Shown: one piece after another, positions 11,435 through 36,235 of the stretch
Layout of the letters: each line of letters begins with the position of its first letter
Numbering within the stretch: the stretch's first letter is position 1
Origin: Streptacidiphilus pinicola
GTDB lineage: Bacteria; Actinomycetota; Actinomycetes; Streptomycetales; Streptomycetaceae
Assembly: GCF_003258295.1 (NCBI RefSeq)
Contig: NZ_QKYN01000067.1
Location: forward strand, 1-64,000
Length of the DNA: 64,000 nt
Direction of reading: 5' to 3'
Notes under the pieces: model-generated
The model's database searches: none
What the model was told of the DNA's origin: nothing
The model's input: only the letters and a program-made list of their open reading frames with translations
Position numbers and translations under genes: made by a program

Positions 11435-11926
11435 TCATGCCGGGGCGAGCCCAGCGAAGTACAGGAGCTGACGTACCAGAGCCATGCTGGCTACCGGCTG
11501 GTCCGGATCGGCAGGACAGTCGGCGTAGCTGATCCGCGCGGTGCCGACGGTGAGGATGTAGTGGTAGGCGTCGGTGCATCGGCTGGGCGCTGGTGTGCGG
11601 CCTGCCTCAGAGGCGAGTTGCGGATCGGCTGCAAGGGTCATCACAGCCGCTACCTGAACGGCGGTCAGTTCTCCGGTGGTCTGGGCACCCGCTCTGTCGG
11701 TGACGGTCCATGCCCCGCGTGGGTCGAGGAACACGGTGTCCTTGAGGCCGGCAAAGCCGCCGGTCCGCTGGAGGGTGATCGGCGGCCAGTGATCGGCGCT
11801 GGGCATGTTGTCTCCTACAGGGCCATGGCGGGCCGTTCCGGCGTTCTGGACACCGCACGCCGTGGTCATCAGAACGCTCAGCACCAGCCCAGTTCGGATC
11901 ACGGCAGCCGCCAGTCTCGTCTTCAT
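11435..11926 (-). CDS. Emfourin-like lipoprotein, putative inhibitor of the adjacent M4 protease
   Basis: A 163-residue exported protein. The N-terminus VIRTGLVLSVLMTTAC ends in a lipobox cysteine. The mature domain has the pattern of emfourin/protealysin-inhibitor-like proteins: ITLQRTGGFAGLKDTVFLD, a GAWTVTD strand, TGELTAVQVAAVMTLA, and a cysteine-flanked YHYILTVGTARISYADC region. Emfourin genes are known next to M4 protease genes and the proteins inhibit them. Here the gene lies 111 bp downstream of an M4 protease on the same strand, but a 17-bp hairpin separates them. The inhibitor role is inferred from resemblance and position. Confidence 0.65.
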   Translation of the reverse strand: MKTRLAAAVIRTGLVLSVLMTTACGVQNAGTARHGPVGDNMPSADHWPPITLQRTGGFAGLKDTVFLDPRGAWTVTDRAGAQTTGELTAVQVAAVMTLAADPQLASEAGRTPAPSRCTDAYHYILTVGTARISYADCPADPDQPVASMALVRQLLYFAGLAPA

Positions 11927-11984
11927 GGCTTGCCTCGCACGGTCATGATTCTCCCTTGCCCCGAGATGTGCGATGCGGTGCGAA

Positions 11985-12023
11985 CCTCGTCCGGGACCGT
12001 CGAGGCGACGGTCCCGGACGAGG
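11985..12023 (-). terminator. Perfect 17-bp stem-loop between M4 protease and emfourin-like gene
   Basis: Arms CCTCGTCCGGGACCGTC and GACGGTCCCGGACGAGG are exact complements with the 5-nt loop GAGGC. It starts 14 nt after the M4 protease stop (minus strand) and 58 nt before the emfourin-like start, so it should terminate or strongly attenuate transcription between them. Confidence 0.75.
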
Positions 12024-12037
12024 CGGTGTCGGACGTG

Positions 12038-14353
12038 TCAGCTCACGCTGACGTCGTCGAAGAGGGTGTAGGTGGCGTCGCCGCTGTAGTTGTCGTCGTG
12101 CGAGGTCAGGGTCAGCGTGTAGCTGTGCCCGGCGGTGACTGGCGCGCTGACCTGGGTCCAGCCTGAACTGCTCACGCAGGTCTGGGCCAGAACCGTAGTT
12201 GTGGTGCCCGCGGTGTTGTCGTTCAGCGTGGCGGTCGCCCAGTCGTAGGCGACGGTGTCAGGGCAGGTGACGTTGTACCAGAACGACAACGCCGTGTTGC
12301 CGGTGGCGGCGGTGAAGGTCTGCGCCGCACTCGAGTCCCCGTTGGTCGCCGAGGTGCTGCCGAGCCGCGCGGCATAGGTCCCGGAGTGGGCACCGCTGTT
12401 CACGACGGTGGCCGAGGCGCCGGAGGTGGTCCAGCCGGAGAGGCTACCGGTCTCGAAGCCCCCGTTGGTGATGCCGGGGCCGCCTGTGCCGCCCACCGTC
12501 AGCGCGAAGGTGGTCGTGCGCGTGGTGGAGGCTCCGGCGCCGGTAATGGTGACCGTGGATGCCCCGGCGGGTGTCGAGGCCGCGGTGGTGATGGTCAGCT
12601 GCGAGGTGCCCCCGGCCGCGATCGAGGCGGGGTTGAAGGAGGCGGTCGCGCCTGCGGGCAGGCCGGAGGCGGAGAGGTTGACCGTCTGCGCGGTCCCGTT
12701 GGTGAGCGTGGTGGACACGGTCGTGGTCAGTGAACCGCCGGGGCTGACGGTGCCGGAGCTGGGCGAGACGGCCATGGAGAAGTCGCTGGTGCCGCTGGTG
12801 CAGGTCGGGTCGCCGGACTGTGCGGGCACGCTGACGGCGTCCCAGGCGGCCTTCACGGTGTTGAACTCGACGCAGGACGCGTCGAGGTTCTTGGCCGCCT
12901 GCAGGGTCCAGGTGCGGTAGGACAGGTAGTCGCTGGCTGAGGTCTTCATCAGCTGGGCGTTGTAGACAACCTTGAGGGCGTTCTCCACGCCGATCCCGGT
13001 GACGCTGGAGCCGTTGCAGGTGGGGCTGGTCGGGCCGCCGGCGGGGTTGCTGCCCTCGGCGAGCAGGTAGAACCAGTGGTTGCCCGGCCCGGCTGCCGCG
13101 TGCACCTCGGCGCTGGGGATGCTGCTGTCGTAGCAGTTGGGGTCGTTGTTGACCAGCGAGGGGTTGTACATGTTGCGGATCGGGCCGCTGCCCACCAGGT
13201 TGATCTGGTCGCCGACCAGGAAGTCGGGGACCGCGTAGGGCGAGGGCTCGTTGAGGAAGAACTCGGTGGAGGCTCCGTAGACGTCGGCGATGAACTCCTG
13301 GGTACCGTTGCCGGAGATACCGCCCGGGGTGTGGTCGTCGATGCCGTGGCCCATCTCATGGGCGACGACGTCGACCGCGCTGATCCACTGGTTGGCGTTG
13401 TTGTGCCCGATCTGGACCTGGGTGCCGTCGTAGAAGGCGTTGACATCGGCGAGGCCAACCCGGATCGGCCAGGCGCCGCCGTTGCCGTCCATGCCGTTGC
13501 GGCCCAGCCACTGTCCGAGCATCCGGAACTCGCCCTGGGCGACGTAGAGGGCGTCGACGCAGCCGGTCTCCCGGTTGGTGGCGTCGCCGTTGCCCCAGGT
13601 GTCGGTCGACTTCGTGAAGGTGGTGTTTGTCGCGGCGTCCTGGCAGGGCATGTTGGCGATGCCCGGGCTGTCCATGGAGTACGAGCCGCCGGAGGCGGTG
13701 GTGCCGATGGTGAGTGGCTCGGGGCCGTTCCACGCACCGGTGCCGCTGCCGTGCGCCACGTGTTCCTGAGTGCGCAGAACGCGCCCGGTGTGCGCGTCCA
13801 CGTCCACGCTCAACCGGCTGTAACCGTCGGCGCCCACACCGTCGACCGTGGTCTCCCACGCCAGCGCGGCGGGCGCCGAGCCGAGCGCGTCCACCACCAG
13901 TCGGGTGCCCTCGACCTTGGACACCGACCGCAGCTGCGCCGCGGCCACGGAGGCGGCCTTGGCGCTGCTCACCGTCGGCGTGACCGACAGTTGGCCGATG
14001 GCGTGCTGCTGCGCGACGGAGTGGAACAGCACCTGGCCGGCGCTGTTCGTTACCACCACGAAGTCGCCGCCGACGACGGGGACACCCGCGTAGGCGCGGT
14101 CGTAGGGCACGTACTGCGTCCCGTTCGACGAGGCGACCGCGTGCCGAACGAACTGCTCGTTCGCGCTTGCGTGGAGGAAGGCCGGTCGGCTGGCGACCAA
14201 CGTGTCGGCGCTTCGGGCGGCGAGCGCCTGGGCGGTGTTCGGCGAGGGCGGTGGGACGGCGGTGGCAGCTGGTGCGGTCGTGGCCAGCGCGGCACCGATC
14301 AGTGCGGCCGCGGCCAATCCGGCTAAGGCGACGCGGGGTCGCGAAATGCCCAT
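12038..14353 (-). CDS. Secreted M4 (thermolysin-like) metalloprotease with C-terminal accessory domains
   Basis: A 771-residue exported protease. Order: signal peptide (about 1-32), FTP/PepSY propeptide (about 40-200), M4 catalytic domain (about 210-520) with the zinc motif HEMGH at 332-336, third ligand E353 in GTQEFIADVYG and H418 in SAEVHAAAGPGNHWFYLL, then an Ig-like domain (ASGLPAGATASFNPAS) and a C-terminal jelly-roll of the NGGFETGSLSGW type to the end. It hydrolyses peptide bonds before hydrophobic residues after self-processing. ATG 14353 has GAGG 6 nt upstream; a TTG at 14365 is possible. The downstream lipoprotein may be its inhibitor. Confidence 0.93.
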   Translation of the reverse strand: MGISRPRVALAGLAAAALIGAALATTAPAATAVPPPSPNTAQALAARSADTLVASRPAFLHASANEQFVRHAVASSNGTQYVPYDRAYAGVPVVGGDFVVVTNSAGQVLFHSVAQQHAIGQLSVTPTVSSAKAASVAAAQLRSVSKVEGTRLVVDALGSAPAALAWETTVDGVGADGYSRLSVDVDAHTGRVLRTQEHVAHGSGTGAWNGPEPLTIGTTASGGSYSMDSPGIANMPCQDAATNTTFTKSTDTWGNGDATNRETGCVDALYVAQGEFRMLGQWLGRNGMDGNGGAWPIRVGLADVNAFYDGTQVQIGHNNANQWISAVDVVAHEMGHGIDDHTPGGISGNGTQEFIADVYGASTEFFLNEPSPYAVPDFLVGDQINLVGSGPIRNMYNPSLVNNDPNCYDSSIPSAEVHAAAGPGNHWFYLLAEGSNPAGGPTSPTCNGSSVTGIGVENALKVVYNAQLMKTSASDYLSYRTWTLQAAKNLDASCVEFNTVKAAWDAVSVPAQSGDPTCTSGTSDFSMAVSPSSGTVSPGGSLTTTVSTTLTNGTAQTVNLSASGLPAGATASFNPASIAAGGTSQLTITTAASTPAGASTVTITGAGASTTRTTTFALTVGGTGGPGITNGGFETGSLSGWTTSGASATVVNSGAHSGTYAARLGSTSATNGDSSAAQTFTAATGNTALSFWYNVTCPDTVAYDWATATLNDNTAGTTTTVLAQTCVSSSGWTQVSAPVTAGHSYTLTLTSHDDNYSGDATYTLFDDVSVS

Positions 14354-14713
14354 GGAGATCCTCAACTCTCATATCGTGTGCATGTCAACGAATGGAGCAC
14401 ACGCCGGGATTCGGCGCGGAGGAACCGACGGCTTGTCACCACAAGGCGTGGTGTGCCGCATTGCCATCAGGGAAGCAGGGCGTGCGCGCCTGCGTCAATG
14501 GGATTCACAGGAAATTCATAGCCACGCAGGTCGGCCGGGGTCCCAGCCACTCCAGTCGAACAATCCAGAAGCCTCGCGCCACACCCCGGTCTGCCAGCCA
14601 CGACCGGACACCCGGCCGCCATCCGCACTCTTGTCGGCCGGACACCAGGTAGGTACCGCTCACGTCCAGCTATCACCCCCACAGAGGGTGGTCAGAGGCT
14701 GCCGGGCCGAACG
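14354..14713. other. Gap upstream of the M4 protease
   Basis: No gene supported. It should contain the protease promoter on the minus strand; no consensus -35/-10 pair was confidently identified. Confidence 0.35.
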
Positions 14714-34210: not shown

Positions 34211-34603
34211 TTGATTCTCAAGAAGGCAGCCGGCACTGCAGTCGCCGCCGCCATGCTCGCTGGCCTCGGCACCGTCGCCACCGCAACGACCGCCTCAGCG
34301 AACGCCAACTGCTACCAAACCATCTACTACAACTCCGACCTCGCCCCCAAGGGCTACTGGATCCCCGACCACAACCTTTCCTATGCGCCCAACTATCAGG
34401 ACGGCTGCGTCGTCATCCTGCAGCAGGAACTGAACCAGGAACTCGGGGCGGGTCTTGCGACAGACGGCTACTTCGGCCAGAACACCCTGTACTGGGTGAA
34501 CAAGTTCCAGAGCGCCCTGAACTGCGCTGGTGGCATCGACGGCGTCGCGGGCCCCAACACGATGAGCTGCCTGGCCTGGGCCACTAGCCAGACCCCCGCC
34601 TAG
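34211..34603 (+). CDS. Secreted peptidoglycan-binding-like small protein
   Basis: A 130-residue protein. Residues 1-32 are a signal peptide (TAVAAAMLAGLGTVATATTA...ANA). The mature part has VVILQQELNQELGAGLATDG, YFGQNTLYWVNKFQSALNC and IDGVAGPNTMSCL, the pattern of PG_binding_1 domains (L-Q-x-x-L, DGxFG-x-x-T, V-x-x-FQ, GxxGxxT). It probably binds cell wall. The TTG start at 34211 has AAAGGACC about 7 nt upstream. First of three small secreted-protein genes. Confidence 0.8.
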   Translation: MILKKAAGTAVAAAMLAGLGTVATATTASANANCYQTIYYNSDLAPKGYWIPDHNLSYAPNYQDGCVVILQQELNQELGAGLATDGYFGQNTLYWVNKFQSALNCAGGIDGVAGPNTMSCLAWATSQTPA

Positions 34604-34897
34604 TGCTTCCACCAGCAGGTGTGGTGCGGCCAGCATGGCCGCCGCCGGAACCGTCCTGTCACCGCGGTGCCCACGGCCGACGCCGCGACAATTTCAGCTA
34701 CCAACCTGCGCCGGGGCAGTTACAGCCCGGGAGTCGCCTGCGTGCAGCGGACCGAGAACTGACACCTCGACCGCAACCACCGAAATCCTGGGTTCTCGGT
34801 GGGCGGGACGACTGGCAGCATCTCCACCGACCGAAAGCGCGCCCGAGTTTTTCACGGCAGCCTCGTCGTTCCCCCGAAGCATGACTGGGAGTCACCC

Positions 34898-35422
34898 ATG
34901 CGTAAGCGTCTTGCCGCCCTGGCCGCCGCTGCTGTTCCGCTCGTAGCCCTCACCCTCGGTGCCGCCCCGGCGCACGCCGCCAGTAACGAGTACAACATCA
35001 ACATTTGGTTCCCTCTGGTCGGGAACAACCAGCCTTACCAATGTCTGGATATTCCCGGCAATAACGCCGCCTCAGGTCAGCAGCTCACGTCGTGGCAATG
35101 CGGCAACACCGACCAGGCGGAGAGGTGGAACATCATCTACACCGACAGCTACCACTTCGAGATCCAGTCGGTGACGAACCCGAACATGTGCGCCAACGAC
35201 TGGCAGGGTGGCGACGTCTCCGGCAACGACATCAAGCTGTACACCTGCAACGGTGACAATGACGGTACGTGGAACACTGTGAACACGATCGGCGGGTTGC
35301 AGCTCCAGCCGAGGTCGGCGGCCGCCAACTGTCTGAACATCTGGGGCGGTCTGGGCAATGGCAACCCGGCGAAGCTGTATCAGTGCGCGGACGTCCCGAA
35401 CGAAGACGTAGTCATCAGCTGA
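34898..35422 (+). CDS. Secreted ricin-B-lectin-like protein
   Basis: A 174-residue protein. Signal peptide 1-27 (LVALTLGAAPAHAA). The mature protein is a beta-trefoil-like lectin: QCLDIPGNNAASGQQLTSWQ, NPNMCANDWQGGDVSGNDIK with LYTCNGDNDGTW, and ANCLNIWGGLGNGNPAKLYQ with C; QxW-type motifs are imperfect. Such proteins bind sugars. It ends abruptly (NEDVVIS), 8 bp before a transposase fragment, so the third lobe may be shortened. GGGAG lies about 7 nt before ATG 34898. Confidence 0.75.
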   Translation: MRKRLAALAAAAVPLVALTLGAAPAHAASNEYNINIWFPLVGNNQPYQCLDIPGNNAASGQQLTSWQCGNTDQAERWNIIYTDSYHFEIQSVTNPNMCANDWQGGDVSGNDIKLYTCNGDNDGTWNTVNTIGGLQLQPRSAAANCLNIWGGLGNGNPAKLYQCADVPNEDVVIS

Positions 35423-35430
35423 TTCCACCC

Positions 35431-35715
35431 TTATCCAGGGGTTGCGGTGAACGCCCGTGGCCTCGGCGGGGCGACCGGTTCGGTCGGTTCGCGCACCGGT
35501 CCGCCGAGCGGGGAGAGCACGCCCAGTGGCGCGTCGGCGACCCACTCCACGATCGCAGCCAGGGACTTCGCGCCCCCGACAACGGCGCACGCGGCCAGTG
35601 CCAGGACGAAGTCCAGGGGATGACGGCGGCCGGCGCGCCGGCGCGGATCGGGCACAGCGGTCAGGCGTTCCAACAGGCCGGGGTGCTCGTCGGGAACGGG
35701 GGCGCGGTGGAGCTG
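35431..35715 (-). mobile_element. ISAs1-family transposase N-terminal fragment
   Basis: Minus-strand frame: GLLERLTAVPDPRRRAGRRH, PLDFVLALAACAVVGGAKSL, AAIVEWVADAPLGVLSPLGG and VREPTEPVAP, the N-terminal region of ISAs1 transposases. The DDE domain is gone. It lies between two stretches of lectin-coding sequence. Confidence 0.7.
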
Positions 35716-35725
35716 GCTCAGGCGC

Positions 35726-35785
35726 CCGGACACCCAGGCCATCCAGTGGGACTGCAACGGCAACAACGACCAGCTCTGGAAGCGG
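35726..35785 (+). pseudogene. Ricin-lectin tail fragment
   Basis: The frame reads DTQAIQWDCNGNNDQLWK, a classic QxW lectin motif (QW-C-G-x-x-Q-x-W). It has no start and lies just after the ISAs1 fragment, as if a lectin gene was broken here. Confidence 0.5.
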
Positions 35786-35848
35786 AAGACCTGGCAAGTC
35801 CTACCAGAGCATCTTCTCAGTGCTTGCACTGACAACGAAGGAGAGCAC

Positions 35849-36235
35849 ATGAGCATCACGCGACGCATCGCGTCCGCAGCCACCGCCCTTGGCATGGCTG
35901 CAGGTATGGGGCTGGCTGTCACTGCACCGGCCCACGCCGACAGTCTCCACTGCACTGACAGCGCCTATTGGGTACGTCTCTGTGCCCAGGGCGGAAACGG
36001 CGGCTACAACGCCGAGGCGTTGTTCTACGGCGGCAATAACCCGCTGGTCGGTGACCCCATGGACTTCACCCTGGTCTGCAACAACGGCTGGGTGGATCCC
36101 GACTCCGGTACCTTCTCCCCGACGTCGGGCTGGTACACGTACTTCTGGAACGTCGATCCGCAGGGCACCTGCCACATCACGCTGACCGACAAGGCCACCG
36201 GCGCTGTCTACAGCAGCCCGGACACCTACTACTAA
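35849..36235 (+). CDS. Small secreted protein of unknown function
   Basis: A 128-residue protein: signal peptide 1-31 (ATALGMAAGMGLAVTAPAHA-D), then a short mature domain rich in Tyr, Trp, Gly and Asn (e.g. NGGYNAEALFYGGNNPL, WYTYFWNVDPQGTCHITLTD) with four cysteines, probably two disulfides. No family recognised. GGAG lies about 6 nt before the ATG. The third of the secreted trio. Confidence 0.75.
   Translation: MSITRRIASAATALGMAAGMGLAVTAPAHADSLHCTDSAYWVRLCAQGGNGGYNAEALFYGGNNPLVGDPMDFTLVCNNGWVDPDSGTFSPTSGWYTYFWNVDPQGTCHITLTDKATGAVYSSPDTYY

Follow-up and report, generated by a model that had tools for sequence, protein, structure and literature searches.

A putative lipid-anchored emfourin homologue encoded beside a secreted thermolysin-type metalloprotease in Streptacidiphilus pinicola

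The window examined here, the whole 64,000-nucleotide (nt) stretch of DNA that was analyzed, belongs to contig NZ_QKYN01000067.1 of Streptacidiphilus pinicola (assembly GCF_003258295.1; host genome, 8.43 Mb) and carries an M4 metalloprotease gene followed by the gene of an emfourin-like putative lipoprotein. Both lie on the minus strand, as do the features of this pair given below, and the protease gene comes first: P0002, an exported (thermolysin-type) M4 enzyme of 771 amino acids from its ATG, is encoded at positions 12038 to 14353 (with an alternative TTG start at 14365), and P0001, the putative lipoprotein of 163 amino acids, at 11435 to 11926, from an ATG with no in-frame start upstream of it. 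In the gap of 111 bp between them (11927 to 12037) lies a hairpin (11985 to 12023) with a perfect stem of 18 bp and a loop of 3 nt. An earlier note, made from the sequence alone, had described the two genes and their gap; both open reading frames were found where it had placed them, the adjacency is confirmed, and its interpretation was partly supported.

We compared P0001 with the emfourin family, to which the earlier note had likened it. Against the Pfam model Emfourin (PF20242), P0001 by itself scored 20.5 bits (E = 6.7e-4), below the cut-off of 27, and when the whole genome was scanned in six frames with Pfam it reached only 14.5 bits (E = 0.29), but several relatives exceeded the cut-off, namely, P0003 (31.4) and P0004 (28.6), which are about 50% identical to it, and the more distant L088 (27.6) and L090 (27.1). 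Moreover, a profile of 13 exported proteins matched a profile of 13 cytosolic actinobacterial emfourins in hhalign with a probability of 97.9 and an E value of 5e-13, and 10 of the 13 exported rows matched the Pfam emfourin model at E ≤ 0.1, which L098 and L094 did not. A search of 100 related genomes with P0001 yielded six with a match, its own included. Four of these are in Catenulispora (51-54% identity), and the three Catenulispora contigs recovered by a collection scan with P0001 correspond to three of these four loci; the sixth match is an 89-amino-acid cytosolic protein encoded directly 3′ of a protealysin-like protease gene, i.e., a classical emfourin pair, and it has the RTGGFAG and DA(F/Y)xY region in common with P0001. 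PDB sequence searches found no emfourin with P0001 or alignment A3, and alignment A4 retrieved the emfourin structure 6ZYG only at an E value of 0.22; the emfourins of L020 and L123, used singly as queries, retrieved no emfourin structure either. Because relatives score above the cut-off, the two profiles match at 5e-13, and RTGGFAG is held in common, homology to emfourins is well supported, and because the single-sequence score lies under the curated cut-off, P0001 is best labeled a distant emfourin homologue from an exported branch, not a classical emfourin. The likeness seen in the earlier note was thus borne out by the profiles, by the relatives above the cut-off, and by the recurrent gene pairing described below.

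P0001 starts with a predicted signal peptide (residues 1-23; 11858 to 11926) that ends in the lipobox MTTA-C24, and Cys24 is invariant in all 13 exported rows of alignment A3. The Thr at position −3 is unusual, yet it is present in some relatives too. A Thr at this position falls within the relaxed lipobox pattern and outside the strictest one. A low-complexity linker follows Cys24. P0001 has the lipobox cysteine behind a hydrophobic stretch that marks bacterial lipoproteins, and its signal peptide and Cys24 set it apart from classical cytosolic emfourins, which are intracellular and have no signal peptide. The signal peptide and the invariant cysteine back the suggestion, made in the earlier note, that the protein would be lipid-anchored on the outside of the cell. 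For wider comparison we used an exported set of 23 emfourin-like loci, the window included, picked by sequence and not by neighborhood. A lipobox was found in 19 of them by pattern and in L117 and L119 by eye, their starts having been placed too far upstream, while L019 and L118 are without one; the starts of L089, L091, L097, and L099 are unverified.

The emfourin-like domain of P0001 (residues 49-158; 11453 to 11782) was predicted by AlphaFold2 to have the order β-β-β-β-α-α-β-β-α, with a block mean pLDDT of 86-97 over residues 51-160. The AlphaFold2 model of a cytosolic emfourin comprises two strands, a helix, two strands, and a helix, so that the exported form has one strand pair more. RTGGFAG (residues 54-60; 11747 to 11767; alignments A1 and A3) forms the turn joining the first two strands in the model; it is invariant in the six rows of A1, one of them a cytosolic emfourin, and its GG and final G are invariant in 13/13 exported rows. 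Cys117 and Cys137 (11516 to 11578), retained in all five closest rows (alignment A2), are predicted to form a disulfide at the base of the hairpin of the fifth and sixth strands. Two or more cysteines were present in 15 of the 23 exported domains versus none of 29 cytosolic ones (the rows are related to one another), and the distance from GG to the D..Y motif was 58-66 residues in 17/23 exported rows versus 42-57 in 28/29 cytosolic rows, the other six exported rows (values of 7 or 25, where the pattern had been mis-caught) being set aside. The best PDB fold matches of both emfourin-type models were chains of Mago nashi, a eukaryotic exon-junction protein (P0001: Z 10.5, root mean square deviation [rmsd] 3.4, 112 residues aligned; cytosolic emfourin L020:5189-5455: Z 5.9, rmsd 3.7, 87 aligned). 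For the cytosolic model this match ranks above 6ZYG itself (Z 4.7, rmsd 5.0, 70 aligned). The common topology of the models carries no information on common function.

The partner, P0002, matched the Pfam families Peptidase_M4 (E = 3.5e-26), Peptidase_M4_C (1.7e-24), and FTP (7.7e-8). The FTP propeptide motif spans residues 72-109 (14027 to 14140), the zinc-binding HEMGH lies at residues 332-336 (13346 to 13360), the second Glu is found in TQEFIAD, and the His belongs to GPGNHWFYLL. Together with an N terminus that resembles a signal peptide (judged by eye), these features are those of an exported thermolysin-type M4 enzyme; protealysin-like enzymes have a short CxxPPxxL propeptide and no signal peptide. 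Hence the statement in the earlier note that the protease is unlike classical protealysin held. It is the sole M4 gene found in the host genome. Of the Ig-like and jelly-roll C-terminal domains that had also been read from the sequence, the jelly-roll received weak profile support and the Ig-like one stayed a reading of the sequence: residues 516-771 (12041 to 12808) form a β-rich extension, the final part jelly-roll-like, in which CBM_4_9 scored 24.5 bits (25.9 needed) and NTTRR-F1 37.4 (70 needed), and no Ig-type Pfam family was found in P0002 at E values up to 1. This C-terminal end, and no other part of the protein, is covered by nine further matches in the host genome, and the module also occurs in most congeners; it is probably a much reused part of secreted proteins.

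Emfourin matches were present in 264 of the 293 genomes of the order. A protealysin-like gene stood alongside in 29 of the 30 best-scoring emfourin loci (a biased sample), the other, L045, lying at a contig end. The emfourin start could be located in 26 of the 30, always 0-6 residues before GG and co-directional with the protealysin-like M4 gene, and 23 of these 26 protealysin-like genes encode the CxxPPxxL propeptide motif. Among exported emfourins, 10 of the 23 loci (the window and nine others) directly adjoin an exported M4 gene, and two further loci, from the Streptomyces family, have an M4 gene at a distance of up to 5 kb, separated from the emfourin gene by others. Adjacency in at least 10/23 would be very unlikely by chance, even if, generously, ten M4 genes are assumed for every 7 Mb, with related loci treated as independent. 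FTP was found in 9/9 exported M4 proteins scanned (eight of them paired), all with signal peptides, and was absent from the protealysin-like one. Thus, inhibitor location follows protease location, with one exception (G065).

The ten adjacent pairs differ in order: the window is tandem, the four Catenulispora loci and two from genomes of another family are divergent, and three are convergent. The window and the Catenulispora loci have only these two genes in common and no other DNA; therefore, the pair appears to be a unit that stays together while orientation and surroundings change. In the M4 tree the paired state requires five or six changes, and the nearest protease to P0002 is the paired one of C. 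rubra, to which it is 89% identical in the tree alignment. The M4 orthologue is present in all 10 Catenulispora genomes searched and the emfourin in 4 of them, so the pairing is not obligatory. In a tree of emfourin domains a single origin of export was not settled, the deep branches being weak. Exported emfourins were found in at least 12/394 genomes of the class and, with a second profile, in at least 13/396 of the phylum; because the genome-wide searches score 8 or 9 candidates per genome, they are under-counted. Among the matches of the second profile, L120 and L121 had no emfourin domain on re-scanning, and L122 and L123 were cytosolic. Second, diverged exported emfourin-like lipoproteins (L089:4925-5440 and L091:3563-5188), with LGADGP or LGDDGP where RTGGFAG stands and with four cysteines, are encoded in the same genomes as M4-paired copies, at a distance of about 60 kb from these.

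On this basis we consider it probable that P0001 belongs to the emfourin lineage as an exported, lipid-anchored protein and has the adjoining secreted thermolysin-type protease as its natural target, the hairpin between the genes being an ordinary 3′ end. The acyl chain would tether the emfourin-like domain to the outside of the membrane, and the Cys117-Cys137 disulfide would stiffen it. Close to the cell, the tethered domain may cap the active site of the matured protease, by homology probably through the RTGGFAG turn, so that envelope proteins would be spared and protease diffusing away would remain active. The most likely function is, then, that a surface-tethered emfourin shields the producer from its own secreted protease. 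The absence of I36-type inhibitors from what was found in the host genome was counted in favor of this reading. Small exported proteins encoded at 34211 to 36235, suspected of being I36-like, turned out to match PG_binding, ricin-type lectin, and no family. The one at 34799 to 35419 is a small exported ricin-type β-trefoil protein (RicinB_lectin_2, 38.3 bits) lying between two other small exported proteins.

Several observations weigh against the proposal. P0001 alone missed the curated emfourin threshold, an NCBIfam search named no family for it, and 6ZYG is absent from the listed PDB fold matches of its model. No M4 gene lies within about 5 kb of 11 of the 23 exported loci, and the targets of some unpaired exported emfourins may be remote or of another kind. 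In two congeners (L086 and L087) the M4 orthologue (71%) has no emfourin nearby; therefore, the protease is tolerable without this partner. Finally, the emfourin of G065 (L019:6922-7338) adjoins an exported M4 gene and has no signal peptide, the signal peptide and linker having apparently been deleted.

Some of these points would also fit a lipoprotein with the emfourin fold and another role, e.g., as a foldase or a docking factor, retaining the protease at the surface or aiding its maturation. A tether beside an exported protease suits a secretion helper as well, and the 11 exported relatives with no M4 gene nearby could be taken the same way. The prototype of the homologous family is, however, an inhibitor of an M4 protease in the parts of the report covered (PMC9505478), and M4 orthologues occur with no adjacent emfourin homologue in the two congeners and in 6/10 Catenulispora genomes, so we regard a helper role as unlikely.

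The earlier note had proposed that the hairpin, which it gave as 17 bp, is an attenuator setting the protease/inhibitor ratio. The hairpin is indeed present and perfect, at 18 bp, its arms (11985 to 12002 and 12006 to 12023) being 100% complementary, and the folding energy of the gap is −56.7 kcal/mol (z score, −4.6; 0/200 shuffles equally good); it is the strongest short-loop hairpin in the window. Its stability, the co-directional genes only 111 bp apart, and the lack of a sigma-70-like promoter in the gap region (in a scan for this one promoter type), such that the inhibitor may need read-through, could all be cited for a dedicated attenuator within an operon. However, when hairpins of at least 12 net pairs were sought within 160 nt 3′ of the stop codon, they were found after 20 of 22 M4 genes examined (none after L145 and L088) versus 27 of 1,260 stretches of 160 nt drawn at random from the same loci, and 19 of the 20 hairpin-bearing genes have no co-directional emfourin downstream. 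In the convergent pairs L092 and L098 the coding sequence of the emfourin contains the hairpin, which may be coincidental. The hairpin sequences vary among the M4 genes, and tandem order is confined to the window, the other 9/9 adjacent pairs not being tandem. An attenuator should be specific to protease-inhibitor tandems and have a run of U or an alternative structure; this hairpin is of a kind common after M4 genes and is followed by no U-run. Among short hairpins in the window, four of the strongest six lie within 80 nt 3′ of a gene end (by a crude gene caller), and stable hairpins with no U-run are described as a type of transcript 3′ terminus in the covered part of a Streptomyces clavuligerus study (PMC8269248). 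The hairpin is therefore best read as the ordinary, probably terminator-type gene-end signal of the protease, and a conserved attenuator is quite improbable. With no promoter-like site in the gap, expression of the inhibitor may rest on transcripts that partly run past the hairpin; the resulting ratio would be unequal with no dedicated device, and any effect of the hairpin on inhibitor level would be plain partial read-through of this kind. Two other assignments were rejected: as a dispersed repeat, the arm at up to 3 mismatches had 155 genome sites versus 129 for the reversed control, the exact pair being confined to the window, and the single match to a classical U-tailed terminator (12198 to 12214, plus strand) was at chance level. 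Between the hairpin and P0001, a possible 7-codon leader open reading frame, MTVRGKP (11923 to 11946), is preceded by a strong Shine-Dalgarno-like AAGGGAG and overlaps the lipoprotein start by ATGA; translational coupling is possible.

The surface location, and the exported relatives that stand alone, would also suit a guard against M4 proteases from other organisms, be they competitors or predators, but retention of the pair in the window and four Catenulispora genomes with no common flanks points to the neighboring enzyme, and a foreign target seems quite improbable to us. That the emfourin similarity is a matter of chance or composition and the adjacency accidental, as the sub-threshold score of the single protein might suggest, is extremely improbable given the relatives above the cut-off, the profile-profile E value, and the recurrent pairing.

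If the protective reading is true, it would account for the sparing of the cell's own surface in actinobacteria that secrete thermolysin-type enzymes, would offer a ready panel of inhibitors for M4 proteases, and makes the clean prediction that inhibitor location tracks protease location. A broader view, which we advance tentatively and think somewhat unlikely as it stands, is that a widespread, so far unrecognized emfourin branch, which would have relocated to the outside of the membrane in actinobacteria and acquired a lipid anchor, a cysteine pair, and a larger sheet, forms, with exported thermolysin-type proteases, a horizontally moving protease/immunity module, kept in any orientation and used in competition or self-protection.

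The emfourin (M4in) of Serratia proteamaculans is described, in the parts of the report covered, as an inhibitor of an intracellular protease that forms a 1:1 complex with protealysin, attaching at the active-site region, and is encoded in the protease's operon (PMC9505478). The window resembles this system (6ZYG) in having a homologous inhibitor domain whose gene adjoins an M4 protease gene, but the prototype has an intracellular protealysin and one operon, whereas P0001 has a signal peptide, lipobox, linker, and cysteine pair, and its partner is an exported FTP-type enzyme. An exported or lipid-anchored emfourin is not mentioned in the covered parts of the emfourin literature; the original emfourin descriptions might mention exported homologues. 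The actinobacterial cytosolic pairs (e.g., L020 and L043) have RTGGFAG and the protease-then-inhibitor order in common with the window, but neither of their proteins has a signal peptide, their GG-to-D..Y distance is shorter, and they lack the cysteine pair, while the model of P0001 has the added strand pair. Streptomyces also produces freely secreted extracellular protein inhibitors, SMPI (Inhibitor_I36) and SSI/sermetstatin, some of which act on metalloproteases. Free secretion distinguishes these from P0001, I36 is absent from the host genome, and SSI-type chains match the emfourin-type models only at Z 3.5-3.9. AprI and Inh differ from P0001 in the protease family addressed (M10), in belonging to another inhibitor family, and in being soluble in the periplasm. 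These periplasmic serralysin inhibitors are retained by the cell, encoded beside a secreted metalloprotease, and thought to protect the producer, according to the covered part of the source (PMC4070987). The role proposed for P0001, a cell-retained inhibitor beside a secreted metalloprotease, would by analogy follow a comparable logic.

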